Below are positions 20,934 through 49,946 of a stretch of 64,000 nt of DNA, piece by piece. The stretch is from Candidatus Liberimonas magnetica (GTDB taxonomy: Bacteria; Elusimicrobiota; Endomicrobiia; Endomicrobiales; JAFGIL01). Positions within the stretch are counted from its first letter, which is position 1. Every line of letters begins with the position of its first letter. Where the stretch lies: NCBI GenBank assembly GCA_020523885.1, contig JAJAPY010000003.1:186001-250000 (forward strand), read 5' to 3'. The position numbers were made by a program, and so were the translations under genes. The notes under the pieces were generated by a model that was not told the DNA's origin, did not search any database, and was given only the letters and a program-made list of their open reading frames with translations.

Positions 20934-20939
20934 AGACCT

Positions 20940-21140: not shown

Positions 21141-21147
21141 ATGGTTC

Positions 21148-22092: not shown

Positions 22093-22112
22093 ATAAAAAC
22101 CCCTCAAGTTAT

Positions 22113-22260: not shown

Positions 22261-22271
22261 TACATCTACAT

Positions 22272-25777: not shown

Positions 25778-27166
25778 TCATTTAACTAATTCTTTGGCTT
25801 TTTCTTTAAGTTCTTTTTTGTACTTTTCTAATAAAACGACTGCTTTCGGATCTCCTGCAATATCCTTATTTAAAAGTACAAAGTCGTTACTATAAGAAAG
25901 TATCTGCTTTTTATCGCCGAGCTTGAACTTTATTATTCCCACTCTGTGGCTGTTCTGCCCGCCCTGTACTATTAAAGTATTATTTACCTTAAGTGGTATC
26001 TTATTAAATGTCTGAGAATGGCCGCCTATTATCAAATCAATACCCTCTATATCCTGTGCTATTTTGTTATCCTGTTCATCCCCGCAGTGCGAAACCAGCA
26101 CTACGATATCCGCTTCCTTCTTTATGCCGGGGATAATATCTTTTAAATATTCCATCATATTAAGTATCTTGACGTCTTTGAGCTTATCTTTCGGGAATAG
26201 AAAGAATATTTCAGGATTTAGTACGCTTATTATTCCGATCTTTACATCGCCCACTTTTTTTATAATATACCTGTCTTTGTTAAATGGATAGCACATTTTA
26301 TCATCGCAGGTGGTCAAATTCGAAGAATAGAACGGAATTTCTTTTGCTTTATCCTTTAAGTAGTCAATGCCCTGCAGTATTTCCTGGTCGCCTACTGATA
26401 TCATATCGTAAGCTATCATCTTTATCATGTTACAACTGTATTCAGCTAATACCTTATCTGGCCTTGGAGGCAAATAATCGCCTGAATCAAGGAGTATAGC
26501 GTCAGGGTTATCACTTTTTATTTTATTTAAAGCAGCTACCTTCCTTACGATCCCGCCGAAGGGGTTCTGAGGGCAATCACAGGACTCAAGCAGGCCGTTA
26601 GAACTACCCGCATAAACGATCTCGATCGCCGTTTCTTTCGGCTTTACGTAAGTTTGTGCGCTTAATTCTGTAATATCTTTTGAAAGCAGCTCTTCTATAT
26701 CTTCATGATAGCCTTTATAATGCCGATGAACCCTTCCGTCTTTGCCTATAACGAACAACTGTGGTATTTCCGCAGCTCCGAACTTTATCACGCCGTATTT
26801 TTCTCCGGCCCGGTACCCTAACGGGTCTGACAATATCGGAATTTCCACTTTATTCTGTTTTAAATACTCCGGCATGACGTTTTCCGGCTTTTCATCGAGG
26901 CATACCATATATATCTTGGCGAGATTTGCATGCTTTTTAGAAAGAGTGTTCAATTTAGGTATCTCTTTTTTGCACGGCTCGCAGTGGGAATCAAAAAAAT
27001 TCAGGATTATTATGTTTTTATTGTCAACTAAACTGCTTAAGGCGACACTATTTTCAGTGCCGTATTCCTGCAGCTTGAAATCCGGGGCAGGCGTATTTAC
27101 TGTTTCGCAAAAAGCACTTACTAAAGAAAAACATAGCACAAAAAACATCGTTAAATAGCATTTCAT
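25778..27166 (-). CDS. TlpA-like thioredoxin fused to 5'-nucleotidase-like phosphoesterase
   Basis: 462 residues from ATG 27166 (GGGAT upstream). A start at 27202 would lie within the -10 box of the promoter and is rejected. A signal peptide leads into a TlpA/AhpC-type thioredoxin domain (about 22-180) with CEPC (C62, C65). The second half (about 185-460) is a UshA-like calcineurin-fold phosphoesterase: 'LLDSGDYL', 'ADIVVLVSHCGDEQDN', 'IDLIIGGHSQT'. The metal-binding start, 'YAGSSNGLLESCDCPQNPFGG', contains an extra Cys pair instead of the usual DxH. This suggests an extracytoplasmic thiol-linked enzyme; the substrate is unknown. It probably works with the adjacent CcdA fusion. Confidence 0.82.
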   Translation of the reverse strand: MKCYLTMFFVLCFSLVSAFCETVNTPAPDFKLQEYGTENSVALSSLVDNKNIIILNFFDSHCEPCKKEIPKLNTLSKKHANLAKIYMVCLDEKPENVMPEYLKQNKVEIPILSDPLGYRAGEKYGVIKFGAAEIPQLFVIGKDGRVHRHYKGYHEDIEELLSKDITELSAQTYVKPKETAIEIVYAGSSNGLLESCDCPQNPFGGIVRKVAALNKIKSDNPDAILLDSGDYLPPRPDKVLAEYSCNMIKMIAYDMISVGDQEILQGIDYLKDKAKEIPFYSSNLTTCDDKMCYPFNKDRYIIKKVGDVKIGIISVLNPEIFFLFPKDKLKDVKILNMMEYLKDIIPGIKKEADIVVLVSHCGDEQDNKIAQDIEGIDLIIGGHSQTFNKIPLKVNNTLIVQGGQNSHRVGIIKFKLGDKKQILSYSNDFVLLNKDIAGDPKAVVLLEKYKKELKEKAKELVK

Positions 27167-27200
27167 TTTTATATCCCTTTCTATCATAGATTTGTTGAAC

Positions 27201-28685: not shown

Positions 28686-29747
28686 ATGAAAATTAAATTA
28701 AAACAAAGCACCGGATCCAAATTAAAGCAGAATATCTATGAAAAGATGCGCTTTTCTGCGTTTATGAAGAGTGACGAAAAAGAATTCGTGGATTTTATCA
28801 ATAAAGTTGAAAATGACCCGCTGTTCAAAAAACTGTGCTTCTCCAAGGACAGAGACCAAAGAATAATCAGTTTAAAAAAATTCCACAGAAACAACTATTT
28901 GTCCTATTCCAATGAACTTAAGATCAATTTCGAAAAAGACGGCACGTTTTACGATATCGGCTCGCTGATAAACAATAAGGCTGCAGCAAAGATACAAAAA
29001 CTGGGATTAAAGAATTTTGAGAAGTATTTTCTATTTGACGAAGATAGGCTTTTATCAGATAGGGAGATCAGCAGAAAATGTAAAATACCTGAACCTGACG
29101 TAAAAGAAATTAAAGGCCTTGTCGATGAATTATCCGTGCGGTCGGAATTTTATTTTCCATCAAATATAACTGTCAGCCCGGGCATTAATTCCTATAAAAT
29201 AGCTGTAATAGACAATATTTCAGGAAAATTACGCACAATTTTTTGTTCACTAAAATTTGTGCAGGGGACTTATGTTATTAATTATTCAAAGCTTGAATCA
29301 TTGAAAAAACAATCAGTTTTTAGTATAATTGAATACAAAAAAATTACGGAACTATTAAAAGACCTGGAGTTGATTAATAAAAGAAAATCAACGATTCAAA
29401 AGATATTGGATTTTATTATTGAAAAACAAGAAGATTATTTAGTATCCGGTAATGGTTCCAAACTAAAGCCCTGTACTCAAAGAGAATTAGCTCATGAAAT
29501 CAACATCGATGAAAGTGTAGTGAGCAGGGCCGTTTACGGAAGGAGCATCCAAATACCGGACGGTTCCGAAAGACCTCTAAATTTTTTCTTCCCGAGCAGA
29601 ATAGATGTTTGTAAAAACATTCTCAGAAATATAATGACAGATAATAAAATCGATTGCTCAGATAAAACGTTCTGCCACATCCTTAGAGATGAGTACGGGA
29701 TCAATATTTCAAGAAGAACGGTCTCCTACTGCAGGAAACACATGTAA
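28686..29747 (+). CDS. Divergent, short sigma-54 (RpoN-like) factor
   Basis: 353 residues, shorter than ordinary RpoN (about 430-500). The C-terminal half is clearly sigma-54: 'RKSTIQKILDFIIEKQEDYL', the helix-turn-helix segment 'CTQRELAHEINIDESVVSRA' (about 263-282) followed by 'PLNFFFPSRI', and a terminal RpoN box 'ISRRTVSYCRKHM' matching ARRTVAKYR. The N-terminus lacks the Gln-rich start of region I, keeping only a vague match ('DFINKVENDPLFKK', compare ELEENPLLE), and the acidic region II is short. Region I contacts the activator, so its divergence may mean a dedicated activator; the adjacent NtrC-type gene, 12 bases downstream, is the candidate. No ribosome site is visible. Confidence 0.82.
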   Translation: MKIKLKQSTGSKLKQNIYEKMRFSAFMKSDEKEFVDFINKVENDPLFKKLCFSKDRDQRIISLKKFHRNNYLSYSNELKINFEKDGTFYDIGSLINNKAAAKIQKLGLKNFEKYFLFDEDRLLSDREISRKCKIPEPDVKEIKGLVDELSVRSEFYFPSNITVSPGINSYKIAVIDNISGKLRTIFCSLKFVQGTYVINYSKLESLKKQSVFSIIEYKKITELLKDLELINKRKSTIQKILDFIIEKQEDYLVSGNGSKLKPCTQRELAHEINIDESVVSRAVYGRSIQIPDGSERPLNFFFPSRIDVCKNILRNIMTDNKIDCSDKTFCHILRDEYGINISRRTVSYCRKHM

Positions 29748-29759
29748 AGGACTAAAATA

Positions 29760-31133
29760 ATGGACGACAAAGCAACCATTCTTGTTGTTGATGATGAAGA
29801 AAACATGAGAGAGTCCTACAATATTATTCTTAAGGATAAGTACAATGTCCTTTTAAGTGCCGGCGGAAAAGAAGCGCTGGAGATATTGAACCGCGAACAG
29901 GTTGACATTGTTCTTTTGGATATTCTTATGCCTGATATGGACGGTATTGAGGTACTTAAAGAGGTTAAAAAGAACCACGATACCGAAGTTATCATGATCA
30001 CTGCTGTAAACGCAGTGAAAACAGCTATCCAGGCTATTAAGTCCGGAGCCTACGATTATATCCCTAAACCGTTTGAAGTAGCTGATTTATTGGCAGTAAT
30101 ACAAAAAGCTTTAGAGAAGCGTGATCTGACAAGGGAAATAATCTATTTAAAATCTGAGTTAGAACAATATACATTTGAAAATATGCTGGGCAACAGTAAG
30201 CAAATGCTTGGGCTTTTCGATTTGATCTCGCAGGCAGGACAGAATCAATCTACGATACTGATCTCCGGAGAAAGCGGCACAGGCAAAGAACTGGTTGCGC
30301 GGGCGATCCATAAAAACGGGACAAGGAAAAACAAGCCGTTTATCGCAGTAGACTGTTCAGCTATCCCGGAAAACCTTGTTGAAAGCGAGCTTTTCGGGCA
30401 TGAGAAAGGGGCCTTTACTGATGCCACGGTCCAAAAGCTTGGTAAATTCGAACTGGCAGGCCAGGGCACGATATTCCTGGACGAAATAGGCAACCTGCCT
30501 CTTGATATACAGAGTAAAATACTCAGAGCCATAGAGTCCAGGGAAATAACACGGGTAGGGGGTAATAAAACCATTAATATCGGGGCAAGAATAATCACTG
30601 CCACAAATATCGATTTAACAAAAGCCATTAAAGACGGGAAATTCAGGGAGGATCTTTATTATAGGCTGAATGTTATACCTATATTAGTTCCGCCTCTCCG
30701 GGACAGGAAAGAAGACATACCCTTGCTGATTGAACACTTTATCGGGTATTTTAACAAAATACTCAAAAAAAATGTTAAAGGGATATCAAAGGAAGCATTA
30801 CAACTTATGATGAAATATAACTGGCCCGGGAATGTAAGGGAATTACGTAATATAATAGAAAGGCTGGTAGCATTGGGCAGCGAGGATACTATATCGCATA
30901 CGCGCTTACCGTTCGAGATTTTGTTAAGTGAAGAAAATGCTGTTTCATCTCAGGAGCTGAATTCATTGAAAAAGGCTCGTGCTGAGTTTGAAAAACGCTT
31001 TATTTTAAAAGTATTAGAAAAAACCAACTGGAATCAAACAAAAGCCGCTAAACTGCTCAACATTCACAGGAACGCCTTAATATATAAAATAAATGTTTTA
31101 AACCTCCGCCCCAAATTTCACAATTCAAAATAG
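29760..31133 (+). CDS. NtrC-family sigma-54-dependent response regulator
   Basis: 457 residues with the standard three domains: receiver (1-120, phospho-acceptor Asp54 in 'VLLDILMPDMDG'), AAA+ ATPase (about 140-380; Walker A 'GESGTGKE', Walker B 'GTIFLDEIGN', 'WPGNVRELRN'), and a Fis-type helix-turn-helix at the end ('KAAKLLNIHRNALIYKI'). The sigma-54-contacting loop reads GAFTDA (217-222) instead of the canonical GAFTGA. It activates transcription at -24/-12 promoters by remodelling sigma-54 polymerase. It is co-transcribed with the divergent sigma-54-like gene and ends 94 bases before a -24/-12 promoter. Confidence 0.93.
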   Translation: MDDKATILVVDDEENMRESYNIILKDKYNVLLSAGGKEALEILNREQVDIVLLDILMPDMDGIEVLKEVKKNHDTEVIMITAVNAVKTAIQAIKSGAYDYIPKPFEVADLLAVIQKALEKRDLTREIIYLKSELEQYTFENMLGNSKQMLGLFDLISQAGQNQSTILISGESGTGKELVARAIHKNGTRKNKPFIAVDCSAIPENLVESELFGHEKGAFTDATVQKLGKFELAGQGTIFLDEIGNLPLDIQSKILRAIESREITRVGGNKTINIGARIITATNIDLTKAIKDGKFREDLYYRLNVIPILVPPLRDRKEDIPLLIEHFIGYFNKILKKNVKGISKEALQLMMKYNWPGNVRELRNIIERLVALGSEDTISHTRLPFEILLSEENAVSSQELNSLKKARAEFEKRFILKVLEKTNWNQTKAAKLLNIHRNALIYKINVLNLRPKFHNSK

Positions 31134-31153
31134 ATGCCAAACCCCTTGCATAC

Positions 31154-31179
31154 GTTTTTGTGCTCCTTGCACAAAAAAC
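31154..31179. promoter_or_regulatory. Palindromic upstream activator site candidate
   Basis: GTTTTTGTGC (31154-31163) and GCACAAAAAAC (31169-31179) form an inverted repeat centred about 87 bases upstream of the predicted sigma-54 start. The absence of a T-run argues against a terminator for the upstream gene. The TTTGTGC half-site recurs before the second -24/-12 promoter. Confidence 0.55.
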
Positions 31180-31226
31180 ATAGAAACAGTTACTTATTAC
31201 CTATATTAAAACCTCTCTTAAGCTAA

Positions 31227-31242
31227 TGGCAATAAATTTGCA
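31227..31242 (+). promoter_or_regulatory. Sigma-54 (-24/-12) promoter of the radical SAM locus
   Basis: TGGCAATAAATTTGCA fits the TGGCAC-N5-TTGCA consensus, with GG and GC exactly at the required 12-base separation. Predicted transcription start is 31253, 85 bases before the first radical SAM gene. No sigma-70 promoter is evident in this gap. Confidence 0.8.
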
Positions 31243-31337
31243 TAATTTAATTGCAATAGCTTTTTTTGACATCAAATCTTTTATAAGAGGTCTATCCTCA
31301 AAGACAATAATTTTTAAATTGACTCGACTTAATAATT

Positions 31338-32744
31338 ATGAAGATTCTATTAATAACACCTAAAAGCAAATCAGGGACCACAGAAAAGGAGTTTTGGGAT
31401 TACGAATTTATGTCTTTGATTATTGGAGAAAAACAGCATAGTCTTGCATCCCTGGCCCTGCCTACCTTAGCAGCATTAACCCCTCCAGACGTTCAAGTGG
31501 AAATAAATGACGAAAATATTGAAAATATAGATTTTAATTCTACTGCAGACTTAGTAGGCATAACAACTAATACTCATTTATCTTTAAGGGCCTATGAAAT
31601 CGCGGATCTGTTCAGAGAAAAAGGCAAAAAAGTAGTACTTGGAGGAATTCATGCTTCAATGTTGCCTCAAGAAGCGATCAAGCATTCAGATGCGGTCGTA
31701 ATAGGTGAAGCTGAAAATACCTGGGCAGGCTTGGTTGATGATTTTAAAAATAATAAATTAAAAAAATATTATGAGTCTTCCAGCAGGCCTGAGTTATCAA
31801 ACCAGCCTTTTCCGCGATGGGATCTGGTCCATACAGATAAATACGCTCTAATTTCATTGCAGACCACAAGGGGATGCCCTTATGACTGTGAATTTTGTTC
31901 CGTAAAAGCATTTTCCGGGTTAAGTTACCGGCGGAAACCGATCGAAAGCATATTAAGGGAAATTGAGTTGATTTCCAAAAAAGGGAAAAAACTTATTTTT
32001 TTTGCTGATGACAATTTAATCGGGCATAAAGAATTTGGGAAAGAACTGGTTGAAGGAATTACTCCGTATAATATTGCTTATAGTGCTCAATCTTCAATTG
32101 ATATAGCTCATGATGAAAATATGCTAAAGCTTATGGCAAAAAGCGGCTGTAAAAAAGTAATAATAGGATTTGAATCTTTATGCGAGGCAAATCTAAAGCA
32201 GCTTAATAAGGCCAAAGCCTATAAATCTGACAAATATATTAATGACATAGAAAAAATACAGTCCTATGGCATTGAGGTAAAGGGTTCTTTTATTGTTGGC
32301 TGTGATTTCGATGATGAATCCGTATTCGAAAAAACTGCGAATTTTATTGAGTCCTCCGGGATAGCTTCGGTTGTAATAAATATTCTTACACCGTACCCGG
32401 GAACACGCCTTTTTAGCAGGTTTGAACAAGAAAATAGACTCATTCATAAAGATTGGTCTAAATATGATAACAGTCATGTTTGTTTTTATCCTAAATTAAT
32501 GAGCCCTGAAGCACTTCAAAACGGCTATAACTGGTTAATAAGAAAGATATTTTCCTATGATTCTATTTTTAAAAGAATGAATGATTTATGGATGTTGTGG
32601 GACAAGTACGGAGTAAGGCGGCGGGACAGGGTGTCACCGCTTTTAGTAAATTTAAGTTCTCACGACATAGCTCAAAGCTATCCTAGGGGAGTCCATCCTG
32701 CCTTATCATTAAAAAAGTTAGCAGTAGGAGGAGTTGATGAGTAA
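31338..32744 (+). CDS. B12-binding radical SAM protein with DUF4070-like C-terminus
   Basis: 468 residues. An N-terminal cobalamin-binding Rossmann domain (1-150; 'VVLGGIHASMLPQEA') is followed by a radical SAM barrel with the [4Fe-4S] motif CPYDCEFC at about residues 180-187. The C-terminal part ('RKIFSYDSIFKRM') resembles DUF4070, the extension seen in hopanoid methylases such as HpnP. Such enzymes use cobalamin and SAM for methylation or other radical steps on unactivated carbon, often on lipids. First gene after the sigma-54 promoter; its end overlaps the ketosynthase start. Substrate not predictable. Confidence 0.85.
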   Translation: MKILLITPKSKSGTTEKEFWDYEFMSLIIGEKQHSLASLALPTLAALTPPDVQVEINDENIENIDFNSTADLVGITTNTHLSLRAYEIADLFREKGKKVVLGGIHASMLPQEAIKHSDAVVIGEAENTWAGLVDDFKNNKLKKYYESSSRPELSNQPFPRWDLVHTDKYALISLQTTRGCPYDCEFCSVKAFSGLSYRRKPIESILREIELISKKGKKLIFFADDNLIGHKEFGKELVEGITPYNIAYSAQSSIDIAHDENMLKLMAKSGCKKVIIGFESLCEANLKQLNKAKAYKSDKYINDIEKIQSYGIEVKGSFIVGCDFDDESVFEKTANFIESSGIASVVINILTPYPGTRLFSRFEQENRLIHKDWSKYDNSHVCFYPKLMSPEALQNGYNWLIRKIFSYDSIFKRMNDLWMLWDKYGVRRRDRVSPLLVNLSSHDIAQSYPRGVHPALSLKKLAVGGVDE

Positions 32745-34017
32745 TAGAGTGGTTATTACAGGTTTAGGTATCATTGCTCCAAACGGAGTGGGGAAAGATA
32801 ATTTCTGGAAATCGACTTGTTCGGGTATATCCGGGATAAAAAAAGTCTCTCGTTTCGATACTCACGACTGCCCTACTAACATAGCAGGAGAAATCGATGA
32901 TTTCGAGCCTAAGGAATATATGGAGAAAAAAACAGCTAACCATTTAAGCAGGTTTGCCCAGTTTGCATTAGCCGCTTCTAATATGGCAATCGAAGACGCC
33001 AAAATTAATATTTCACTGGAGGATCCTTATCGTATCGGCATAGCGATAGGTAATACAATCGGCGGTAAAGAAGTAGACGAAAAACAGCAGAGAGTTTCCA
33101 GCGAAAGCGGCTGGTCAAAAATTCACCCGTTTTCGGTGTCTCTAATCAGCAACAGTTATGCGGTGGGCGCTGTTGCTTCCGAACTGGGTATCAGGGGGCC
33201 GAATAATACATTCAGTACAGGATGTTCCTCAGCTTCATCAGCAATCGTTTACGGATTTGACAATATAAAAAATGGAACTGCGGATATTTTCCTATCAGGC
33301 GGAACAGAGGCTCCGCTGGTGCCTTTTGTCTTTAACGCATTTTGCGCATCAGGGGTGCTTAGTCAAAATAACGGCGACAGGCCCGGATCGGCAAGCAGGC
33401 CTTTTGACAAAAAAAGAAACGGTTATGTTCTTTCTGAAGGCTGCGGAATTGTGATATTGGAAAGTTTAAACCATGCGGTTAAAAGAAAAGCAAAAATATA
33501 TGCCGAGATAGGGGGGTATGGAGTTACCAATGATGGTTATAACTTGGTAAAAATGGAACCTACCGGCCGGGATGCTGCAAGGGCGATAAAAATCGCATTA
33601 AATAACAGTAATGTAAAGCCGACTGATGTGGATTATATTAATGCACACGGGAGCTCTTCTCAAGTCTCCGATAAAAGAGAAACCAGCGCCATAAAACAGG
33701 TTTTCGGAGAATATGCATATAAGATTCCAATCAGCTCTGTAAAATCAATGGTTGGACAGGCTTTAGGAGCATCAGGCGGGATACAGGTAATAGCAACAGC
33801 CCTATCGATTTACAATTCGAAGATATCACCTACAATTAATTACGAAGAGCAGGACCCCGAGTGCGATCTGGACTATACCCCAAATAAACCGAGGACCTAT
33901 CAAACAAATACTGCGCTTATCAACTCGTTTGGCCTCGGCGGGAACAATGTTTCAATGGTTATGAAAAAGTATTCAGAACCAAAAGCAAGTTTCCCCTGGG
34001 CACTAAATCTTTTTTGA
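32737..34017 (+). CDS. Beta-ketoacyl synthase (FabF-like) with His-to-Gln change
   Basis: 427-residue frame; the ATG at 32737 lies five bases after GGAGG, and the TTG at 32734 would be too close. The fold is FabF/KAS II. The catalytic triad should be Cys-His-His: Cys163 ('STGCSSAS') and His304 ('NAHGSSS') are present, but the second histidine (usual 'KSMxGHxxGAxG') is Gln341 ('KSMVGQALGASG'), read directly as CAG at 33757. That His normally assists malonyl decarboxylation, so the enzyme may only transfer or condense without decarboxylation, or use an unusual extender. No acyl carrier protein or reductase is adjacent. It overlaps the previous gene by 8 bases. Confidence 0.88.
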   Translation: MSNRVVITGLGIIAPNGVGKDNFWKSTCSGISGIKKVSRFDTHDCPTNIAGEIDDFEPKEYMEKKTANHLSRFAQFALAASNMAIEDAKINISLEDPYRIGIAIGNTIGGKEVDEKQQRVSSESGWSKIHPFSVSLISNSYAVGAVASELGIRGPNNTFSTGCSSASSAIVYGFDNIKNGTADIFLSGGTEAPLVPFVFNAFCASGVLSQNNGDRPGSASRPFDKKRNGYVLSEGCGIVILESLNHAVKRKAKIYAEIGGYGVTNDGYNLVKMEPTGRDAARAIKIALNNSNVKPTDVDYINAHGSSSQVSDKRETSAIKQVFGEYAYKIPISSVKSMVGQALGASGGIQVIATALSIYNSKISPTINYEEQDPECDLDYTPNKPRTYQTNTALINSFGLGGNNVSMVMKKYSEPKASFPWALNLF

Positions 34018-34036
34018 AAAAATGTGAGGTATACAA

Positions 34037-35461
34037 ATGAAAATATTATTAGTATTGCCGCCAAGTAAAAGGCTTATCGGAATTCAAGAACAAATCTTCC
34101 CTGTAGGATTAGGGTATTTGGCTGCTGTTTTGGAAAAAGAGGGCTATGATGCTCATATTTACAACATAGATATGGATCCTAATGAAAATAATTTCGAACT
34201 AAATGCAGCTTTAAACAGTGAAGAACACCTAAAGGCAAATTACCAAATGCATAAAATTGAAGCTGAGTTAAATAATGATAGCCATATTGTATGGCACGAA
34301 ATATTTGAAACATTAAATATTTATATACCTGATATTGTTGGAATTTCAGTTACAACTATGACTTTTAAAGCGGCATTGAAAGTTGCAGAAATTTGCAAAA
34401 AATGGAAACCTGATGTTAAAATCGTATTTGGAGGGCATCATCCGACTATTGATTCGGAAATGACTCTGATGAACAATGATGTAGACTTTGTTATAAGGGG
34501 CGAAGGTGAAGAAACTTTAAAAGAGCTGGTTAACAAAATAAATCAAAAAAGCGATAATTTTAGTGAAATTGATGGCCTCTCATTTAAATTGGATGGAAAG
34601 ATAATTCATAATAGAAATAGAGGTTTAATAAATGATTTAAATACAATACCATATCCAGCCAGGCACTTGCTCATAAATAAAAACAAATTCCCCGATCTTT
34701 TTACTAAAAATTCCGTAATGGGTATAGGAAGAGGCTGCCCATGGAAATGTACCTTTTGTTCCAGCTCAGCAATATGGGGAAGGAATGTTCGAATTAGGAA
34801 TATTAGCAATATAATTGGCGAAATAAGAATGCTTGTTGATAAGTATGGAGCGCAAAAAATATCTTTTTATGATGATACATTTAGTGTCAATAAGGATTTT
34901 GTATCAAGTTTATGTGAAAGAATAATTGATGAAGGAATAAAAATAAAATGGATATGTCTAAGCAGGGCGGATTGTTTAGATGATAAAATAATCAGGCTTA
35001 TGAAAAAAGCAGGATGTATTGCGATTGCGCTTGGCGTAGAATCTGGCAGTGATAAAATATTGGAATTTTTAGACAAGAAAGAGGATTTAGAAAAAATTAA
35101 AGCGGTTTCAAAGTTGATAAAGTCCAATGGTATCTGGCTTACTACATTTTTTATGATTGGGATTCCAACCGAGTCGAAAAATGACATAGAAAAATCCCTG
35201 AATTTAATGAAAGAAGTCGGCCCTAATGAGATTTATTTGTCTTCTTTTAAGGCGAATCCTGGAACAATGGCCTTTGAATACATTGTAAATAATAAAATAA
35301 TGTCTCAAAATGAATTAATGAACACTAATTCTGACATATATAGAAATCATAAATTTATGGACAATATAAGCAGGGAAGAATATAAGAATATTTTTGATAA
35401 TGCTTATAATTTTATTAGCGAATATAACAGAAATTATAAAATTCAAGCTAGACATAATTAA
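34037..35461 (+). CDS. B12-binding radical SAM protein
   Basis: 474 residues. Cobalamin-binding domain at about 1-190 with 'PDVKIVFGGHHPTIDSE' and 'VIRGEGEETL', then a radical SAM domain with CPWKCTFC (about 235-242) and 'GVESGSDKILEFL'. The family, with BchE-type layout, includes methylases and cyclases. It lies 19 bases after the ketosynthase gene, with GTGAGG as ribosome site. It has low similarity to the 550-residue pair downstream, so it is probably a different step of the same pathway. Confidence 0.87.
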   Translation: MKILLVLPPSKRLIGIQEQIFPVGLGYLAAVLEKEGYDAHIYNIDMDPNENNFELNAALNSEEHLKANYQMHKIEAELNNDSHIVWHEIFETLNIYIPDIVGISVTTMTFKAALKVAEICKKWKPDVKIVFGGHHPTIDSEMTLMNNDVDFVIRGEGEETLKELVNKINQKSDNFSEIDGLSFKLDGKIIHNRNRGLINDLNTIPYPARHLLINKNKFPDLFTKNSVMGIGRGCPWKCTFCSSSAIWGRNVRIRNISNIIGEIRMLVDKYGAQKISFYDDTFSVNKDFVSSLCERIIDEGIKIKWICLSRADCLDDKIIRLMKKAGCIAIALGVESGSDKILEFLDKKEDLEKIKAVSKLIKSNGIWLTTFFMIGIPTESKNDIEKSLNLMKEVGPNEIYLSSFKANPGTMAFEYIVNNKIMSQNELMNTNSDIYRNHKFMDNISREEYKNIFDNAYNFISEYNRNYKIQARHN

Positions 35462-35489
35462 TTTAACGTTATAAGGAGGAATCTTATCC

Positions 35490-36050
35490 ATGCAGTTTAC
35501 TTTAATTGCTCCCATTGTACTATTCTTAGTAGGTCTTATTCATCTATTTGAAACATTTTATTTAGAAAAAAACAAAGAAAAAGGAAAAACCTATGCAAAA
35601 TGGACATTGCCGGCTCTAAGTATGGGTTTTGTTCTTGTGCTTGCTAGCAGCCTGAGTGAATTTTATTCGGTAAACCGAACAATTGATTCTATTATTTCAG
35701 GGATGGGCCTTTTGATAACATTGATTAGGATTCCTATTAAACTTTGGGCAGCAAAAACTTTGGGTCAATACTGGAGCCCACATGTAAAGATACGTAGTAA
35801 CCATATGGTAATAAAATCTGGACCGTATAAGTATCTGCGTCATCCTGTATACTTCGCAGCTTCAATGGAATTGGTAGGGATACCTTTGTTTGTTAATGCA
35901 TATTATACTTTAGTTTCTACATCACTGGTGCTGGTTTCATTAATTGTAGCGCGTATGTATATCGAAGAAAAAGTATTATTAGCAGAATTAGGTGAACAAT
36001 ATATTGAATACAAAAAAGAAACATGGGGTATGATCCCATTGATACATTGA
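35490..36050 (+). CDS. ICMT/PEMT-like membrane methyltransferase
   Basis: 186 residues with about five membrane segments. The cytoplasmic C-terminal part has the isoprenylcysteine carboxyl methyltransferase pattern: 'GPYKYLRHPVYFA' followed by 'EEKVLLAELGEQYIEYKK', the SAM-binding RHPxY and EExxL signature. Bacterial members methylate lipids or small isoprenoid-like substrates; protein prenylation is not expected here. The ribosome site AAGGAGG is strong. Same operon as the radical SAM genes (29 bases downstream of the previous gene). Confidence 0.85.
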   Translation: MQFTLIAPIVLFLVGLIHLFETFYLEKNKEKGKTYAKWTLPALSMGFVLVLASSLSEFYSVNRTIDSIISGMGLLITLIRIPIKLWAAKTLGQYWSPHVKIRSNHMVIKSGPYKYLRHPVYFAASMELVGIPLFVNAYYTLVSTSLVLVSLIVARMYIEEKVLLAELGEQYIEYKKETWGMIPLIH

Positions 36051-36141
36051 TTTTTATTAAACAATTCTTTAATAAAATCTTAGAAATGAAAATAGCAAAA
36101 ATGGGATATAATTAATATCTACAAACAATATTTAAATTAGG

Positions 36142-36168
36142 TGCCACCTACGCGGTGGAACATGGTTC
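36142..36168. repeat. Copy of the 'CCACCTACGCGGTGG' hairpin
   Basis: GCCACC and GGTGG enclose TACGC, followed by AACATGGTT. The same sequence, with its middle reversed (GCGTA), forms the strong terminator at 46065-46100. The outer arm is not complementary here and there is no T-run. It lies in the 154-bp gap before the ThiF-like gene, which otherwise holds only an AT-rich stretch with a TATAAT-like word. Confidence 0.55.
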
Positions 36169-36204
36169 AAAAGTTAGCGAAATTAATAAGAGAGGGATTA
36201 CATT

Positions 36205-36978
36205 ATGACCAAAAGCTTTAGCAGGAATATCGGACTAATATCCGAGAAAGAACAGGATAAACTTCAAAATTCAACAGTTGCTATAGCAGGGGTTGGAGGA
36301 GTCGGAGGGTTCCCTGCAGAACGTTTAGCCCGTTTAGGTATTGGGCATTTGAAAATAGCGGACCCGGAAAGTTTTTCCGAAACCGATATTAACAGGCAGT
36401 TCGGAGCTACAAAGGAAACCATAGGTAAAAAGAAAGTAGACGTAATTGAAAAATTAGTAAAAGAAATAAACCCGGACATAGTTGTCAATAAATTCGGCGA
36501 CGGTATTAAGGAAAATAATGTTAATGAATTCCTCAAGGGGACCGATCTCGTCATAGACGCTATAGAATTTTTTATATTTGGACCAAGAATGTTGTTATAC
36601 CCAAAGGCCAGAAAAACAGGGAAGATTATTCTGCTTTCAGGAGCGGTCGGCTTCGGCGCACCTCTTTTTGTGTTCTCGCCCGAAGGCATGACTATGGAAG
36701 AATATTTTAATGTCCCCAAGGACAAAAACAGACTTGATAAATTTCAGATCCCTCTAAATAAAATGTGCCCGGTTGCCTTAGACTATATACCAAAAGAATT
36801 GATAGAAGACATTTATAAAGGAAAACACCATGTACCTACCTTAAGCCCTATATGCGCATTGGCCGGCAGCCTGTTAGCTATGGAAACGGTATTCAGGCTT
36901 CTTGGTAAAAGAACTGGTGGCTATGTCCCTTATCATACTTATATCGATTTATATAAACAAGAATTAATAATTCTATAA
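36205..36978 (+). CDS. E1/ThiF/MoeB-like adenylyltransferase
   Basis: 257 residues. The N-terminal Rossmann motif 'VAIAGVGGVGGFPAERLARLGIG' and 'DPESFSETDINRQFGA' are those of ThiF/MoeB/ubiquitin-E1 enzymes (the Asp and Arg bind ATP). They activate a carboxyl end by adenylation, usually of a small protein, sometimes of an amino acid or peptide. The CxxC zinc pairs common in ThiF are absent and there is no rhodanese domain. There is no ubiquitin-like or precursor-peptide gene nearby. It sits between the methyltransferase and the tandem radical SAM pair. Ribosome site GAGAGGG. Confidence 0.85.
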   Translation: MTKSFSRNIGLISEKEQDKLQNSTVAIAGVGGVGGFPAERLARLGIGHLKIADPESFSETDINRQFGATKETIGKKKVDVIEKLVKEINPDIVVNKFGDGIKENNVNEFLKGTDLVIDAIEFFIFGPRMLLYPKARKTGKIILLSGAVGFGAPLFVFSPEGMTMEEYFNVPKDKNRLDKFQIPLNKMCPVALDYIPKELIEDIYKGKHHVPTLSPICALAGSLLAMETVFRLLGKRTGGYVPYHTYIDLYKQELIIL

Positions 36979-37002
36979 TTGACAAATTACAAGGCGGCCT
37001 TT

Positions 37003-38655
37003 ATGTCTACAAAAAGTATTTTGATAAATTACGGTGGATATCCGCGTTCAACGCGCAACTTTGTTCCTGACAACGGAGTTGCTTCTTTAGCCGGGGCACT
37101 ATTGGCTAAAGGACACACGACTACGATATTAGACTATTCTACAGTAGATATTGTTAAGAGAATATTTCCTCACCAATATAAAGATGAATTGGAAAAAATA
37201 ACGGAAAGAATAAAAATACATATTAGACAAGGAATTGATCCTGATAGAAAAGATTTGGAAGCTTTTCGCTTTATTGATAACCTGATAGAAAAATATGAGT
37301 ATGATAAAATGCTTGAAATTGCGCAGGAAATTTTTGAATATATTGAGTCTCATAAAGTTGATTTTGTCGGTATAAAATTATTTTTAGGCGATTCCTTTGA
37401 AGGTTCTGTCAGGATTGCTCAATACCTGAAAATAAAGAAGCCCGGGCTGCCTATTTTTGCAGGCGGGCCCCATGTTGATGCTTTTATGTCGAGAATATTT
37501 GATATAACAAAAGTATTTGACGTTCTCGCTTACGGTGAAGGCGAAGAAACAATATTTATGCTGGCAGAATTTGTTGAAGGAAAGAAAAGGCTTGAAGAGA
37601 TACCAAATATATTGTATCGTTCAGGCACAAAAGTGGTAATCAATCCGATGAAAAGAATCGAAGATTTGAATGCATTACCTTATCCCGTATATGATGAAGA
37701 AATTTATCCAGCTATGAAAGGCGACCAGAAAGTTAAGGTGATACTTATTGACGAAAGCAGAGGATGCCCGAATGCATGCAATTTCTGCTGCCATCCGTCT
37801 AAAAGCGGGAAAAAGGTACGGGTACGCAACCACAAGACAGTTGTTGATATTATGGAATCAATGAAGACAAAACATGACATAAAAGCATTTCGTTTTGCCG
37901 GCTCAAGCCCGCCTCCGGTGCATAAAAAACTTATTGCGCAAGAGCTATTAGATAGGAAATTAGATTTTCAATACACTACCTTTTGTGCTGTTAAAGGGGG
38001 TAAACTGGAAGATTTTGAGCTTTTGAAAAACTCGGGATGTTTTGCTATACTTTTTGGCATTGAATCAGGCAGCCAGGAAATCTTAAATAGAAGCATGAAC
38101 AAGAACGTAACCCTGGAGCAAGTCAAAAACGCTGTTGCCTTGTGCAAGAAATCCGGCATAGCAACCGTAGGAAGCGTTATAGTGCCGGCACCTTTTGAAT
38201 CCGAGGTAACAAAAAACGAAACATTGAATTTACTTAACGAGCTTGTCCTTGATTCAACTACTGTCTGTTTACCTACGCCTATCCCTGGTACAAAATGGGG
38301 AGATGACTTATTGAAATATAATTTTAACATTCCAGATGAGCGGCAATTCTGGAAAGATGCAATTGTTTTTAACTTAAAAAACTATTATCCGCAATTCTTG
38401 TGGAAACCGATGCCCGGCTACCGGCTTAATAATAAGCCGTTTAACGAAATAGCCCAAGAGACATCAGAGTTTGTGCGGAAATTAGAAAGCAGAGGATTAA
38501 CAACTCAAGCCAGCGATGAGATACTTCTTTTAGCGCATTATGCAGGGCTTTCCACAAGAGAATTCAGGGATAAAAATGACCAGTATTTCAGCGAAGGTAA
38601 TTACCAGGCTATCAGCCGAATGGTAAGCGGTATAAACAAAAATATTCTAAACTGA
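37003..38655 (+). CDS. B12-binding radical SAM protein, tandem paralogue 1
   Basis: 550 residues from ATG 37003 (AAGGCGG upstream; the open frame reaches back to a TTG at 36979 directly after the ThiF-like stop). This start matches the start of the paralogue. An insertion-rich N-terminal cobalamin-binding part (1-235; 'LPIFAGGPHVDAF', 'AYGEGEETI') precedes the radical SAM motif CPNACNFC and 'GIESGSQEILNRSM'. About 100 extra C-terminal residues follow ('KPMPGYRLNNKPFNEI'). It shares most of its length with the next gene, so the pair arose by tandem duplication. Confidence 0.86.
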   Translation: MSTKSILINYGGYPRSTRNFVPDNGVASLAGALLAKGHTTTILDYSTVDIVKRIFPHQYKDELEKITERIKIHIRQGIDPDRKDLEAFRFIDNLIEKYEYDKMLEIAQEIFEYIESHKVDFVGIKLFLGDSFEGSVRIAQYLKIKKPGLPIFAGGPHVDAFMSRIFDITKVFDVLAYGEGEETIFMLAEFVEGKKRLEEIPNILYRSGTKVVINPMKRIEDLNALPYPVYDEEIYPAMKGDQKVKVILIDESRGCPNACNFCCHPSKSGKKVRVRNHKTVVDIMESMKTKHDIKAFRFAGSSPPPVHKKLIAQELLDRKLDFQYTTFCAVKGGKLEDFELLKNSGCFAILFGIESGSQEILNRSMNKNVTLEQVKNAVALCKKSGIATVGSVIVPAPFESEVTKNETLNLLNELVLDSTTVCLPTPIPGTKWGDDLLKYNFNIPDERQFWKDAIVFNLKNYYPQFLWKPMPGYRLNNKPFNEIAQETSEFVRKLESRGLTTQASDEILLLAHYAGLSTREFRDKNDQYFSEGNYQAISRMVSGINKNILN

Positions 38656-38667
38656 CAGGAATTTAAT

Positions 38668-40320
38668 ATGTCGACAAAGAGTCTATTGATAAACTTTTCA
38701 GGCTACCCTAATGAACCATACAGCTTTGTGCCGGACAACGGCCTTGCTAATTTGGCTGCGTGTTTGATAAAAGCAAATCATTCTACAATTATTTGGGATT
38801 ATTCGAAAGTAGATATTATAAATAACTTATTTCCGTATCAGTATAATAAGTTATATCAAGATGCACTGATAAAAATAACAAGTAATTTAAAAAGTGGAGA
38901 CAATCTTTCAGGAAAAGATTTATACGAATTTCATAAATTGGAAGACGAAATAGACGCTTTTCAACATGAGAAAATGAATGAAATTGCCATTGAATTAAGC
39001 AGTTATATCGGCAAAAACTCTATAGATTTTGTCGGCATGAAATTGTGGACAGGCTTGGGATTTTATGGTGCGATGATAATTGCTAAACAGATAAAAAAAG
39101 ACCATCCAAATATCCCTATTTTCGGCGGGGGGCCGCATGTCGATTGGTTTAAGGAAATGATCTATAAAGTTACCGACGTGTTTGATGCTTTGGTGTACGG
39201 GGACGGCGAAGAAGTTATTGTAAAATTGGCAGAGCATGTGCAGGGGAAGACAAAACTTAAAGATATTCCGAATCTAATTTATAGAGAAAATGGCAGCATA
39301 TTGACTAATCCTGTAAAATGGATAGAAAATCCGGACGAACTGCCTATGCCTGTATATGACGAAGACGTTTATCCTGCCATGAAAGGAGACCAGAAAGTAA
39401 AAGTTTTTTTAGTTGATGAAAGCAGAGGGTGCCCAAATTCTTGCAGTTTTTGCATACATTCAAGAAAAGACAAAAAAAAATGGGTGACAAGAGATGCGAA
39501 TAAATTTGTTGATCAAATTGAATACCTGTCTAAAAAATACAAGGCCAGAGCTTTCAGGTTTGCCGGCACAAATACACCGCCTTCTTTTATGAAAAGCATT
39601 GCGCAAGAAATACTTAAAAGAAACCTGTCTATTATTTATTCATCCTTTATGCATGTGAGAGGCGTGTCAAAAGATTTTTTTGAGCTGCTAAAAAAGTCAG
39701 GTTGCTCTGCCCTCGCCTTCGGAGTTGAATCCGGAAGCCAAAGGATTTTAAATGAATGTATGGATAAAAAAGTGTCTGTTGAACAGATAAAAAGTGCAGT
39801 CATTTTATGTAAGCAGGCAGGTATTAAAACCGTTGTGAGTTTAATAGTTCCTGCTCCTATGGAAACCGCAGTAACACAAGAGGAGACGATGCAGTTATTG
39901 CTCGAACTTAAACCGGATTCAACTGTTGTATTTTTCCCAACATTGATTTTAGGCACAAGATGGGAAAGAGAATATGAAAAATACGGATTTACTATTAAAA
40001 ATCGGGAAGATGTTTTTAAAATAGCAATGACCCACAGGGTTAATCACTTATGCCCGCCTTTATTATGGCGCGATTTGTCCGGTTATTCATTAGACGGTAA
40101 AACATTTAAGGAACTTGGAGCGGAAACTTCAAGGTTTGTTCAAAAATTAAAGAACAGCGGTTTGGTTACGCAATTATTTGACAGCACGCTTTTAATAGCA
40201 GATTATGCCAGAATACCGCCAGGAGAACTGGCTAATCAAACTCATTCTTTTCTTTCAACCGGCGATTATGCTGCAATGGGAAAACTCATCTCTTCAATTA
40301 ATTCCTGCATGGTCAATTAA
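38668..40320 (+). CDS. B12-binding radical SAM protein, tandem paralogue 2
   Basis: 550 residues. It begins MSTKSLLINFSGYP, parallel to MSTKSILINYGGYP of the gene before it, and keeps matching blocks throughout: 'GGGPHVDWF', 'DEDVYPAMKGDQKVKV', the cluster motif CPNSCSFC, 'GVESGSQRILNECM', and a similar C-terminal extension. Both copies keep all cluster cysteines, so both should be active, perhaps in successive radical steps or on related substrates. It is the last gene of the sigma-54 locus. Confidence 0.86.
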   Translation: MSTKSLLINFSGYPNEPYSFVPDNGLANLAACLIKANHSTIIWDYSKVDIINNLFPYQYNKLYQDALIKITSNLKSGDNLSGKDLYEFHKLEDEIDAFQHEKMNEIAIELSSYIGKNSIDFVGMKLWTGLGFYGAMIIAKQIKKDHPNIPIFGGGPHVDWFKEMIYKVTDVFDALVYGDGEEVIVKLAEHVQGKTKLKDIPNLIYRENGSILTNPVKWIENPDELPMPVYDEDVYPAMKGDQKVKVFLVDESRGCPNSCSFCIHSRKDKKKWVTRDANKFVDQIEYLSKKYKARAFRFAGTNTPPSFMKSIAQEILKRNLSIIYSSFMHVRGVSKDFFELLKKSGCSALAFGVESGSQRILNECMDKKVSVEQIKSAVILCKQAGIKTVVSLIVPAPMETAVTQEETMQLLLELKPDSTVVFFPTLILGTRWEREYEKYGFTIKNREDVFKIAMTHRVNHLCPPLLWRDLSGYSLDGKTFKELGAETSRFVQKLKNSGLVTQLFDSTLLIADYARIPPGELANQTHSFLSTGDYAAMGKLISSINSCMVN

Positions 40321-40347
40321 TCCTTTTTTTAAACTCACATAATATGA

Positions 40348-40445
40348 TATAATTCTCTTTAGTAAATACGTGCTTATGCGGTGCAATAAGACGTCTTATA
40401 TAACCTCCCCGCAGCAAACTACGGGAAATAGTCAGGTTTAATTAA
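40348..40445 (+). promoter_or_regulatory. Extended -10 promoter and structured leader of a sensor kinase gene
   Basis: TGATATAAT (40345-40353) is an extended -10 box with predicted start near 40361. The leader of about 100 bases contains the palindrome ATAAGACGTCTTAT, CCCCGCAGCAAACTACGGG and a following TAGTCAGG. These words partly resemble cobalamin-riboswitch and c-di-GMP-I cores but do not fit either class completely. No obvious ribosome site precedes the ATG. Confidence 0.4.
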
Positions 40446-40460
40446 ATAAATACCCGAATT

Positions 40461-42629
40461 ATGAATAATAAATATCTGCAGGTATCAAAATACATCGGAA
40501 TATCTCTTGCAATTGGAGTATTTATATACGCTCTTTTTTTTGTCGGTAAGGCTAACCCACATTCTATTCCCTGGTTTCTATCTTTTATCTTTAATGCATT
40601 CCTATGTATTTTTGTATATCTCAATAACCGGTTTAACAAAGTTAACAGGATATTCACCATATTTAATTTATGTGGTACTCTATGGATTTTGGGGGCATTT
40701 ATCCTGCATATAGCACCCAGCGAAAGATTTGCATATAATTATACCCGGTTCTTTTCTATCGGTATGATTTTTATTCCTCCGACATTTTTACATTTTGTTA
40801 TTATTCTTACCCAGAGCAAGAACCTAACATTAAAGAAAGCCCTTAATATTGCATATATCTTTGCAGTTATATTATATGTTTTAAGCCTTAACGGCTTATT
40901 TGTTAAGGAATTTACGTGGATTGGCTGGAAGTATTATCCGCAGCCGTATATTGTTTATAAATTTTATATAATTAACTTTGTTTTCTGGATGATATTTTCA
41001 TTACTACACGTCTTTCGCAGTTACAAAAATGCGAAATCATATAAAATCAAGAATCAGCTTAAATATTTTTTCTTAGCTATTTCGGTAGGTACATTTTTCG
41101 GGTCAATGAATCTACTAACCTCCTTTGGTTTTAAAATATACCCTATAGGAGGTTTTGCAAATATCATTACACCTGCAATTTTGGCATACGCTATTGTTAA
41201 GCATCAGCTTCTTGATATTCAGGTAATTATCCGAAAAAGCGCTATCTATGGTACTTTAACTATATCATTAATAGGTATTTATGCGCTTATAGTAGGCGGT
41301 TTAACTGCTGTTTTTGGAGTAGTAGGACATTCTGGCAGTTGGTTCATCAACGGAATAGCTGGCCTTTCCATAGCTGTTCTGTTTTTACCGATGAGAGAAA
41401 AAATACAGCTTGTTATAGATAAATTATTCTTTAAAGTCAGGTATGATTATCATCAGACCCTATCGAATCTAAGCGCAGAGCTGACTTCCATAATCAGGCT
41501 GGAGAATTTGCTTGAATTATTGGTTACTCAGGTCGTAGAAACAATGCAGGTTCAAAAAGGATTTATAATGCTCTTTGACAGACAAAAAGAAGTTTTTAGT
41601 ACAATTAGCCAGCTGGGCATGGATAAGGAAGCTATTTTAAATTTTTCTATTGATAAAAATGATAAGTTTATTTCTTTTCTTGCCAAAAACAAGAAAATAG
41701 TTTATCTGGATGAAATACAAGACAGTTTTGTTGTGCCTTTAAAACAGTTGACTATGTCCTTATGCGTGCCTCTCATCACAAAAGGCAATTTAGTGGGCAT
41801 TTTAAATCTTGGTTATAGATTATCCGAGGACCAATACACAAAAGAAGATATAGAGCTCCTTACAACAATATCCAATCAAGCAGCCATCGCAGTTGAGAAT
41901 GCACAATTACACAGACAAATAATGGATACGGAAAAGGACCTTCTATCCTCAGATAAGTTCTCAGCTTTGGACACTTTCGCGGCAAACATAGCGCACGAAA
42001 TAAAAAATCCTCTTACTTCCATAAAAACATTCTGCCAGCTCCTTTACGATAAATTCAATGATAAATTATTCGTTGAAAAATTTAACAGCATAATCCCAAA
42101 AGAAATAGAACGTTTAGAAAACGTGCTGGAGAATATGCTGCATTTTAATAAAACCTTAAATGTCTCATTCGGCAAGGTGGACATTAAGCAGGTACTTGAG
42201 GAATTGATAGGTTTGTTATATTACGAGATCTATAAACAAAATATAGCGTTAAAAAAACAGTATCCCGAAACTTCTTTGGAAGTAAAAGGGAACGCAGAAC
42301 AATTAAAACAAGTCTTTATGAACCTGATATTGAACTCCATACAGGCTATGCCAAAAGGAGGCAGTTTATCTATCTCTATCAAAGAACTCATGGAAGACAA
42401 GAATAATACTCAATTTATTGAAGTTTCAGTTACAGATACAGGCTGCGGAATACCTAAAGAATCTTTGAATAAACTCTTTAAACCTTTTTATACAACTAAA
42501 CCAAAAGGTACAGGTTTAGGCCTATCTATAACCCGCAAGATCGTAAGAGAACATGAAGGGACAATAAGTGTAGAGAGCATACCTAATAGCGGGACCACCT
42601 TTATAGTTAAACTGCCTGTTTACCAATAG
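40461..42629 (+). CDS. 7TM-GAF sensor histidine kinase
   Basis: 722 residues. The first 320 or so contain about eight hydrophobic helices, the layout of the 7TM histidine-kinase N-terminal sensor. A GAF domain follows (about 340-490), then HisKA with 'AANIAHEIKNPLTSIKTF' (His512) and HATPase with 'NLILNSIQAMPKGG', 'VTDTGCGIPKE' and 'GTGLGLSITRKIV'. It senses an unknown membrane-linked or intracellular signal. The next genes are a response regulator and a hybrid kinase, separated by their own sigma-54-type promoter. Confidence 0.9.
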   Translation: MNNKYLQVSKYIGISLAIGVFIYALFFVGKANPHSIPWFLSFIFNAFLCIFVYLNNRFNKVNRIFTIFNLCGTLWILGAFILHIAPSERFAYNYTRFFSIGMIFIPPTFLHFVIILTQSKNLTLKKALNIAYIFAVILYVLSLNGLFVKEFTWIGWKYYPQPYIVYKFYIINFVFWMIFSLLHVFRSYKNAKSYKIKNQLKYFFLAISVGTFFGSMNLLTSFGFKIYPIGGFANIITPAILAYAIVKHQLLDIQVIIRKSAIYGTLTISLIGIYALIVGGLTAVFGVVGHSGSWFINGIAGLSIAVLFLPMREKIQLVIDKLFFKVRYDYHQTLSNLSAELTSIIRLENLLELLVTQVVETMQVQKGFIMLFDRQKEVFSTISQLGMDKEAILNFSIDKNDKFISFLAKNKKIVYLDEIQDSFVVPLKQLTMSLCVPLITKGNLVGILNLGYRLSEDQYTKEDIELLTTISNQAAIAVENAQLHRQIMDTEKDLLSSDKFSALDTFAANIAHEIKNPLTSIKTFCQLLYDKFNDKLFVEKFNSIIPKEIERLENVLENMLHFNKTLNVSFGKVDIKQVLEELIGLLYYEIYKQNIALKKQYPETSLEVKGNAEQLKQVFMNLILNSIQAMPKGGSLSISIKELMEDKNNTQFIEVSVTDTGCGIPKESLNKLFKPFYTTKPKGTGLGLSITRKIVREHEGTISVESIPNSGTTFIVKLPVYQ

Positions 42630-42717
42630 TTAACCCAATTTATACTTATTTATATTAACTAATAAATAAGCTTTAAATATCAAGCTTTTTGTACTATTAT
42701 ACCATATTAATTGTACT

Positions 42718-42742
42718 ATCTTTGTGCATAATGCATAAAGAT
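42718..42742. promoter_or_regulatory. Palindromic upstream activator site candidate
   Basis: ATCTTTGTGCAT and ATGCATAAAGAT are 12-base arms around a single A, with one mismatch. It is centred about 76 bases upstream of the second predicted sigma-54 start. Another TTTGTGCA follows at 42742-42749. The half-site TTTGTGC is shared with 31154-31179. Confidence 0.5.
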
Positions 42743-42779
42743 TTGTGCAATTAATAGAATGCTTGTATTTAAAAATTAC

Positions 42780-42795
42780 TGGTAATCTTTTTGCT
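42780..42795 (+). promoter_or_regulatory. Second sigma-54-type (-24/-12) promoter
   Basis: TGGTAATCTTTTTGCT has GG and GC at the strict 12-base separation and matches the consensus except T for C after TGG. Predicted start is 42806, 32 bases before the response-regulator ATG. Confidence 0.6.
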
Positions 42796-42837
42796 TATTA
42801 TTATGTAAGGGAGAAAATTGAAAAAAGGAGTTATTCA

Positions 42838-43392
42838 ATGATTAACAAAAACGTATTGATTATTGATGACGAATGTGGCGTAAGAGAATCTTTATCTGTA
42901 GCTTTGCAGAACGATTGTAGAGTAACAACAGCAGAAAGCGGAGAAGAAGGACTGAAGCTTATTAAAGAGAACTTACCCGGCCTGGTAGTACTTGATATCA
43001 ATCTACCCGGAATGGATGGAATTGAGGCCTTAAGAAATTTCAGGATCATTGATGCTTCTTTGCCTGTAATAATGATATCCGGAATGGAAGAAATTAAAAA
43101 TATCGCAGCATCCTTTCGGTTAGGCGTCATAGACTTCTTCTGTAAACCTTTTAATATAAATGAATTTAGTAGAGTTGTTAATCAAGCCCTGAGCAAAGAG
43201 GAAGAAGCAAATACAAATAACGGAGAAAACACTGTTTCTTCCGGCCTTGACGACTTTATCGAAAAAAAAGTAGATACTGCGTTACAAGACAACCTTGAAC
43301 TAAAAGACGCTCTTAAAAGTTTCGACGACCAATTTGTCGATGAAATCTTAAATGGAAATATCCGCAATACCAATAAGAACCGGCCAAGTTAA
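42838..43392 (+). CDS. Response regulator, receiver domain with short C-terminal extension
   Basis: 184 residues from ATG 42838, which has AAAGGAG seven bases upstream; the frame could open earlier at 42745, but that would place the -24/-12 promoter inside the gene. Receiver domain 1-120 with Asp53 ('LVVLDINLPGMDG') and the conserved 'CKPF' lysine loop. The last 60 residues are acidic and helical without a DNA-binding fold, so output is probably through protein contact. It is followed by a hybrid kinase. Confidence 0.87.
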   Translation: MINKNVLIIDDECGVRESLSVALQNDCRVTTAESGEEGLKLIKENLPGLVVLDINLPGMDGIEALRNFRIIDASLPVIMISGMEEIKNIAASFRLGVIDFFCKPFNINEFSRVVNQALSKEEEANTNNGENTVSSGLDDFIEKKVDTALQDNLELKDALKSFDDQFVDEILNGNIRNTNKNRPS

Positions 43393-49945: not shown

Positions 49946-49946
49946 T

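Follow-up and report, generated by a model that had tools for sequence, protein, structure and literature searches.

The 64,000-nucleotide stretch of Candidatus Liberimonas magnetica DNA analyzed here (the window) carries a locus in which a run of biosynthetic enzymes is flanked on both sides by regulators. Between 31338 and 40320, the list of open reading frames (ORFs) and Pfam place seven same-strand genes encoding four B12-binding radical SAM proteins (rS1 to rS4), a FabF-like ketosynthase (KS), an ICMT-like methyltransferase, and a ThiF/E1 protein. The seven ORFs exist in the order and on the strand given in a first-pass annotation of this DNA, the observation of which we confirm overall. 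Its boundaries of 31227 to 40320 do not hold as those of the full unit, as they omit a sigma-54 gene and an NtrC-type gene on the 5' side (28686 to 31133) and a histidine kinase and a response regulator on the 3' side. The real unit is larger than first described and extends from 28686 to 43392, with the following features.

28686 to 29747, + strand: sigma-54 paralogue, divergent and short, 353 aa (PF04552, E 2e-18)
29760 to 31133, + strand: NtrC-type response regulator, REC-AAA+-Fis, with a GAFTDA loop (Pfam)
31146 to 31175, no strand: candidate upstream activator site, dyad TTGCATAC-N4-TTGTGC plus an inverted repeat (shuffles)
31227 to 31241, + strand: sigma-54 -24/-12 promoter TGGCAATAAATTTGC, 13/14 of the weighted consensus, with an equivalent in 9/10 loci
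31338 to 32744, + strand: rS1, B12-binding radical SAM protein of type A1 with a partial DUF4070 C terminus (Pfam, tree)
32737 to 34017, + strand: FabF-like KS with Cys164-His305-Gln342 (Pfam ketoacyl-synt N and C, tree, alignment)
34037 to 35461, + strand: rS2, B12-binding radical SAM protein, HpnJ/BchE-like (Pfam, NCBIfam, tree)
35490 to 36050, + strand: ICMT/PEMT-like membrane methyltransferase (PF04140, E 7e-20)
36205 to 36978, + strand: ThiF/E1-like adenylyltransferase, PRK08223-like (PF00899, E 8e-40)
37003 to 38655, + strand: rS3, B12-binding radical SAM protein of type B (Pfam, tree)
38668 to 40320, + strand: rS4, B12-binding radical SAM protein of type B, an rS3 paralogue with 47% identity (Pfam, tree)
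40461 to 42629, + strand: 7TM-GAF sensor histidine kinase with a PrsK-like N terminus (HisKA_7TM, GAF, HisKA, HATPase)
42731 to 42794, + strand: second NtrC-type dyad, 14/16 (42731 to 42750), and sigma-54-like element, 12/14 (42780 to 42794)
42838 to 43392, + strand: response regulator 3' of the kinase (Response_reg)

The enzyme genes are codirectional, as first proposed, but their run is not strictly uninterrupted: 5' of the E1 gene lies a 154-nt gap that could harbor an internal promoter. The more likely start codons are ATG 32737 for the KS, whose gene then overlaps the end of rS1 by 8 nt, and ATG 37003 for rS3. A simple scan revealed no terminator between the enzymes and the kinase gene, and an Rfam scan of 28 to 46 kb gave no match and thus no B12 riboswitch in that region. 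No ACP, reductase, dehydratase, or chain-length factor gene was found in the window's locus. Elsewhere in the window, the - strand carries at 2401 to 14970 an ORF of 4189 aa with matches of the adenosine-deaminase and protein-kinase types; Pfam covers almost nothing else of it. Two ABC transporter sets of the phosphate type, each with a PBP_like_2 binding protein and a BPD_transp_1 permease, lie at 47290 to 51586, where ABC ATPases were also seen, and at 57141 to 60607; the interval between the two sets encodes a Porin_5 protein and a histidine kinase.

A KS census across 341 genomes of the phylum, probably Elusimicrobiota (individual genomes are labeled by G-numbers, G000 being the source genome) recovered 10 members, always in a similar neighborhood. 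The nine other KSs are 54 to 62% identical to that of the window and were matched at E values of 1e-149 or lower versus 1e-126 for FabF, a gap of more than 20 orders of magnitude. When 295 phylum genomes were searched with rS3, all four close relatives found lay in the same type of neighborhood. Whether the genes might be unlinked in all relatives was also checked, and linkage was found in relatives. The NtrC gene is present in 9/10 loci, and those for ICMT, the kinase, and sigma-54 are present in 7/10 each, absences in draft genomes possibly reflecting contig ends; the KS itself and at least one B12 radical SAM gene occur in all ten, G057 counted. The G057 locus comprises two contigs that are not joined, which we infer to be one locus from an outer-membrane-type ORF that is cut off at the end of each. 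The minimal version, sigma-54, NtrC, KS, ICMT, one B12 radical SAM enzyme, and the kinase, is found in G042 and G148. Beside the KS in G047 (17039 to 17989), and also in G057, lies an outer-membrane-barrel-like protein without a Pfam match, possibly an exit route for a hydrophobic product.

The KS had been described as a modified ketosynthase, correctly so, as its second active-site His is replaced by Gln342. This Cys-His-Gln triad (C164, H305, and Q342) is invariant in 10/10 cluster KSs, which therefore lack the Cys-His-His triad that defines FabF and that is present in twelve FabFs of the phylum, including the FabF of the source genome. The nucleophile Cys164, within an STGC motif, His305, and Lys337 are retained. 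KASIII and type III polyketide synthase (PKS) enzymes carry Cys-His-Asn and still condense, so that a KS lacking the second His could still do so. The ten proteins form a clade of their own (100/100 support), nearer to FabF (87/81) than to the two KSalpha sequences used. The window's KS scores 472.8 bits against the FabF model TIGR03150, below the cut-off of 493.75, and passes the more general model NF005589 (455 versus 387). In its STGC and S-I/V-K-S-M-G motifs, the cluster KS is closer to the KSalpha of type II PKS than to FabF; it differs from KSalpha in its separate clade and in its Gln at the second His, and no chain-length factor, ACP, or cyclase gene is near it, the paired chain-length factor and ACP that mark KSalpha systems being absent from all ten loci. 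The KS structure model gave no information beyond the sequence. Among plasmids, all KS matches were below 60% identity, the best ranked at about 42%, and GTDB contigs yielded just two weak sphingomonad matches as named homologues.

Pfam B12-binding and Radical_SAM matches in rS1 to rS4 bear out the four B12-binding radical SAM proteins originally proposed, the B12-binding match of rS4 being marginal (31.8 bits versus a cut-off of 32.1). All four contain the CxxxCxxC motif, and a DxHxxG motif was found in none of them. The hopanoid-methylase-like C terminus attributed to rS1 exists as a DUF4070 match, but this match is partial and covers 66/144 positions. Phylogenetically, three radical SAM types recur among the loci: A2 (the core type, HpnR-like), A1 (rS1), and B (rS3 and rS4). 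The orthologues of rS1 in two homologous loci are 52% identical and form a clade with it (100/100), whereas in the radical SAM tree the type of rS2 is seen in the window's locus only. Type A2 is present in 9/10 KS genomes, missing only from the window's locus, and outside the KS genomes the phylum search found just a distant match of 41% in G021; the hypergeometric value for cooccurrence of A2 and the KS is 6e-17, a value that ignores genome kinship. Type B is confined to KS-bearing genomes among the 295 searched with rS3. The number of radical SAM genes varies from 1 to 4 per locus, with a single one in the G148 and G042 loci and the G067 stretch, which does not support four such enzymes as the essence of the system. 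In G047, a RAYT-like transposase ORF lies between two radical SAM genes, which we take to be an insertion.

HpnR, HpnP, HpnJ, and BchE are the closest named families, core type A2 reaching 250 bits to HpnR. All locus radical SAM scores fall far below the curated cut-offs for HpnR, HpnJ, and BchE (650, 578, and 481, respectively), and the locus has no hopanoid or bacteriochlorophyll context. We rejected the identification of any of these proteins as a hopanoid C-3 or C-2 methylase or as HpnJ because the curated scores are all well below cut-off. FabF-like enzymes also accompany B12 radical SAM proteins in ladderane-type lipid clusters, which differ from the locus in that the latter has no ACP, FabZ, FabG, or desaturase gene and in that its matches to the ladder-type radical SAM models, at 92 to 137 bits, are far under the 360-bit cut-off.

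The membrane methyltransferase and the ThiF-family protein of the earlier description were likewise recovered by Pfam. Six other loci have ICMT orthologues with 35 to 40% identity, and the gene is missing in the G047 and G057 stretches. Type III PKS and ICMT-family methyltransferase pairs, such as BpsA/BpsB, similarly place a condensing enzyme beside an ICMT-like O-methyltransferase; the locus differs in that its KS is FabF-like and that B12 radical SAM enzymes belong to its core. The E1 protein combines PF00899 with a GVGGVGG nucleotide-binding motif, as is characteristic of ThiF/MoeB E1-like enzymes, and no sulfur-carrier partner was found at the locus. Its orthologues recur only in G067 (51%) and G057 (56%), so that this gene, present in 3/10 loci, is an optional tailoring gene rather than the defining part that it had been taken to be. 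By inspection, a PqqD-like protein of 88 aa lies beside a radical SAM protein 3' of the kinase in G067 (25902 to 27186), and in G057 (602 to 2056), before the E1-like gene, a PP-loop-like match with an SGGKDS-type motif has a PqqD-like N terminus.

The E1 gene raises the question of a RiPP cluster, in which the E1 protein and the B12 radical SAM enzymes would modify a small precursor peptide. ThiF-like proteins such as MccB and PaaA and B12 radical SAM enzymes are known in RiPP pathways, and the structural matches of the E1 protein include MccB and PaaA. The match to these two is weak, however, no convincing small precursor ORF is present in 31130 to 42700, and among the enzymes it is the KS that is best conserved, the E1 gene being optional. 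We rejected this reading on the grounds of the missing precursor, the optional E1 gene, and the weak MccB/PaaA match, and consider it very improbable. The combination of a constant core with variable tailoring (1 to 4 radical SAM enzymes, an optional E1, and PP-loop/PqqD-like genes in G057) has the look of secondary metabolism and could be that of a specialized antibiotic or defense metabolite cluster under stress control. We deem this unlikely, as neither a transporter nor a resistance gene was found at the locus and a putative outer-membrane barrel is present in just two loci, G047 and G057.

The NtrC-type protein has orthologues with 54 to 64% identity in the other loci save G007. Its GAFTDA loop was considered as a special trait and rejected, being common in activators of the phylum. 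The sigma-54 gene lies adjacent in 7/10 loci, with no adjacent copy in G067, G085, and G057, and in a tree these genes form no clean clade by locus. The source genome encodes two sigma-54-like proteins and two activators, each sigma-54-like gene having one activator gene as its neighbor, with one such pair on contig 3 and the other on contig 6 (at 11323 to 13945). Adjacent pairs also occur on contig 14 of G047 and contig 5 of G085, which suggests that one-to-one sigma-54/activator pairing is a habit of the phylum. Six loci besides that of the window have a kinase orthologue 3' of the enzymes; the kinase is absent from the G007 stretch, and the contigs of G055 and G085 end too early to tell. 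Its N terminus is membrane embedded, its 7TM model being of low confidence (pLDDT 70) and the likeness of this model to 7TM receptors below significance. In G049, the 7TM region of the kinase is duplicated, giving a protein of 982 aa (20050 to 22998). Response regulators also follow the kinase in G049, G047, G042, and G057, and long kinase and response regulator arrays follow the locus in G047 and G049. The response regulator at 42838 is likely a second output of the circuit.

As judged by comparison of components, PrsK-PrsR-RpoN1, which regulates PEP-CTERM genes in Aquincola, is the closest regulatory analogue, sharing with the locus a 7TM-GAF kinase, an NtrC-type regulator, an RpoN paralogue, a -24/-12 promoter, and an upstream enhancer-like sequence (PMC9850573). 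The likeness to a system that also employs an RpoN paralogue (PMC9850573), together with scores of 199 bits for the kinase against the PrsK model and 395 bits for the activator against the PrsR model, might indicate a PEP-CTERM/exosortase system under PrsK-PrsR control. Yet both scores lie under the curated cut-offs of 300 and 503, the exosortase family PF09721 is unmatched in the source genome and above cut-off in 1/10 KS genomes, and the targets at the locus are biosynthetic enzymes instead of PEP-CTERM genes. With no exosortase in the source genome and both cut-offs missed, this possibility was rejected and appears scarcely credible.

The first-pass annotation had placed all enzymes behind one -24/-12 promoter. 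Such a promoter does precede them, but it is not the only one, as a second sigma-54-like promoter lies downstream. The first, TGGCAATAAATTTGC at 31227, is 111 nt 5' of rS1 (p about 0.004 or less versus intergenic shuffles) and, given this score and its conservation in relatives, is more than chance: in 9/10 loci, a sigma-54 element scoring 12 to 14 of 14 lies 34 to 111 nt 5' of the first enzyme gene (p at most 0.044 versus shuffles in every case), that of G148 being weak. Upstream, the perfect inverted repeat TTTGTGC-TCCTT-GCACAAA at 31157 to 31175 had 0 matches in 300 shuffles. At seven promoters, four of them before enzymes and three before the gene after the kinase, a dyad TTGCACAA-N4-TTGTGCAA, which we take to resemble NtrC sites in form, ends 56 to 68 nt 5' of the -24 element. 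The form of the dyad was chosen post hoc from the sites, so that its p-values are descriptive, both for TTGCATAC-N4-TTGTGC (0.02 versus shuffles) and for the dyad of the window's second promoter (0.002, as for the accompanying sigma-54-like element), where the spacing of 29 nt is shorter than elsewhere. Elements matching this second promoter occupy the same place in G049, G047, and G042, making four loci in all with one before the postkinase gene. The strict dyad pattern occurs at three other sites in the genome, all inside ORFs. A genome-wide regulon drawn from the promoter pattern was rejected as too weak, with 10 matches versus 5 in the control.

A -24/-12 promoter, an upstream dyad, and an NtrC-type AAA+ activator together mark a sigma-54 enhancer-dependent regulon, and the idea of a coregulated sigma-54 biosynthetic locus is supported. 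On the evidence of gene content, the sigma-54 paralogue, the NtrC-type activator, the Cys-His-Gln KS, the ICMT-like enzyme, 1 to 4 B12 radical SAM enzymes, and the 7TM-GAF kinase travel together, and predicted sigma-54 promoters are conserved before both the enzymes and the downstream response regulator. With its own sigma-54 paralogue, activator, sensor kinase, and second sigma-54-like promoter, the locus is a regulatory circuit no less than a pathway. The first interpretation is partly supported: no literature text combining these genes was found, in line with the claim that the set has no described match, and a lipid- or polyketide-like product was a reasonable guess.

Such a product might serve the membrane itself. 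The locus could be a membrane-lipid remodeling regulon that makes a structural lipid with a methylated, cyclized, or otherwise modified chain, the kinase sensing the state of the membrane and not the product. The FabF-like KS, the membrane methyltransferase, and the HpnR/HpnP/HpnJ-like radical SAM proteins are lipid-type enzymes, the ladder-lipid radical SAM family is among the weak NCBIfam matches, and the membrane-embedded N terminus of the kinase also fits. We nevertheless see this as a secondary candidate of limited probability, since none of the ten loci contains a glycerolipid gene, an acyltransferase, or an ACP, the sporadic spread (10/341) is unlike that of a structural lipid, and both the large phosphorelay arrays and the second sigma-54 promoter, with a response regulator under its control, speak for signaling.

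We lean modestly toward a self-contained biosynthetic and regulatory module for a membrane-soluble methylated acyl- or polyketide-type molecule, which may act as a signal to the module's own kinase in a positive loop; the identity of the product and its feedback onto the kinase are what we infer. In this module, the kinase would phosphorylate the NtrC-type protein, which would occupy the dyads and open both promoters together with the local sigma-54. The KS would then condense or transfer an acyl chain from the general fatty-acid ACP, and the ICMT-like enzyme would methylate the chain, through carboxyl or enol O-methylation or at another position. The B12 radical SAM enzymes may add C-methyl groups or ring closures, and in some species the E1 protein would activate a carboxylate. 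The methylated product may be the signal read by the adjacent 7TM kinase, closing the positive loop. In Ralstonia, the methyltransferase PhcB makes a fatty-acid methyl ester that the histidine kinase PhcS senses, both within one circuit (PMC8578825). By its description, this methyl-ester sensing is the closest functional analogue for the proposed reading of the product by the kinase. The likeness is one of function, a methyltransferase and a kinase in a circuit, with signaling at the locus only proposed; the locus differs in its ICMT-like methyltransferase, in the addition of a KS and B12 radical SAM enzymes, and in an output through NtrC and sigma-54.

More speculatively, and with rather low expectation on our part, the locus may represent a new kind of bacterial circuit for communication or development, in which a methylated lipid or polyketide signal, made by the Cys-His-Gln KS, the ICMT-like enzyme, and the B12 radical SAM enzymes, is sensed by the linked 7TM-GAF kinase, amplified by a private sigma-54/NtrC pair, and passed to a downstream phosphorelay. 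If the proposed module is real, a nearly uncultured phylum would gain a pathway of its own to a secreted or membrane lipid, along with a receptor that can be tested. The sigma-54 paralogues kept beside single dedicated activators represent a modular use of sigma-54, and the six-gene minimal set (sigma-54, NtrC, KS, ICMT, radical SAM, and kinase) is small enough for a laboratory host. The KSs of these loci also define a subfamily, all ten recovered members of which carry Gln in place of the second catalytic His.
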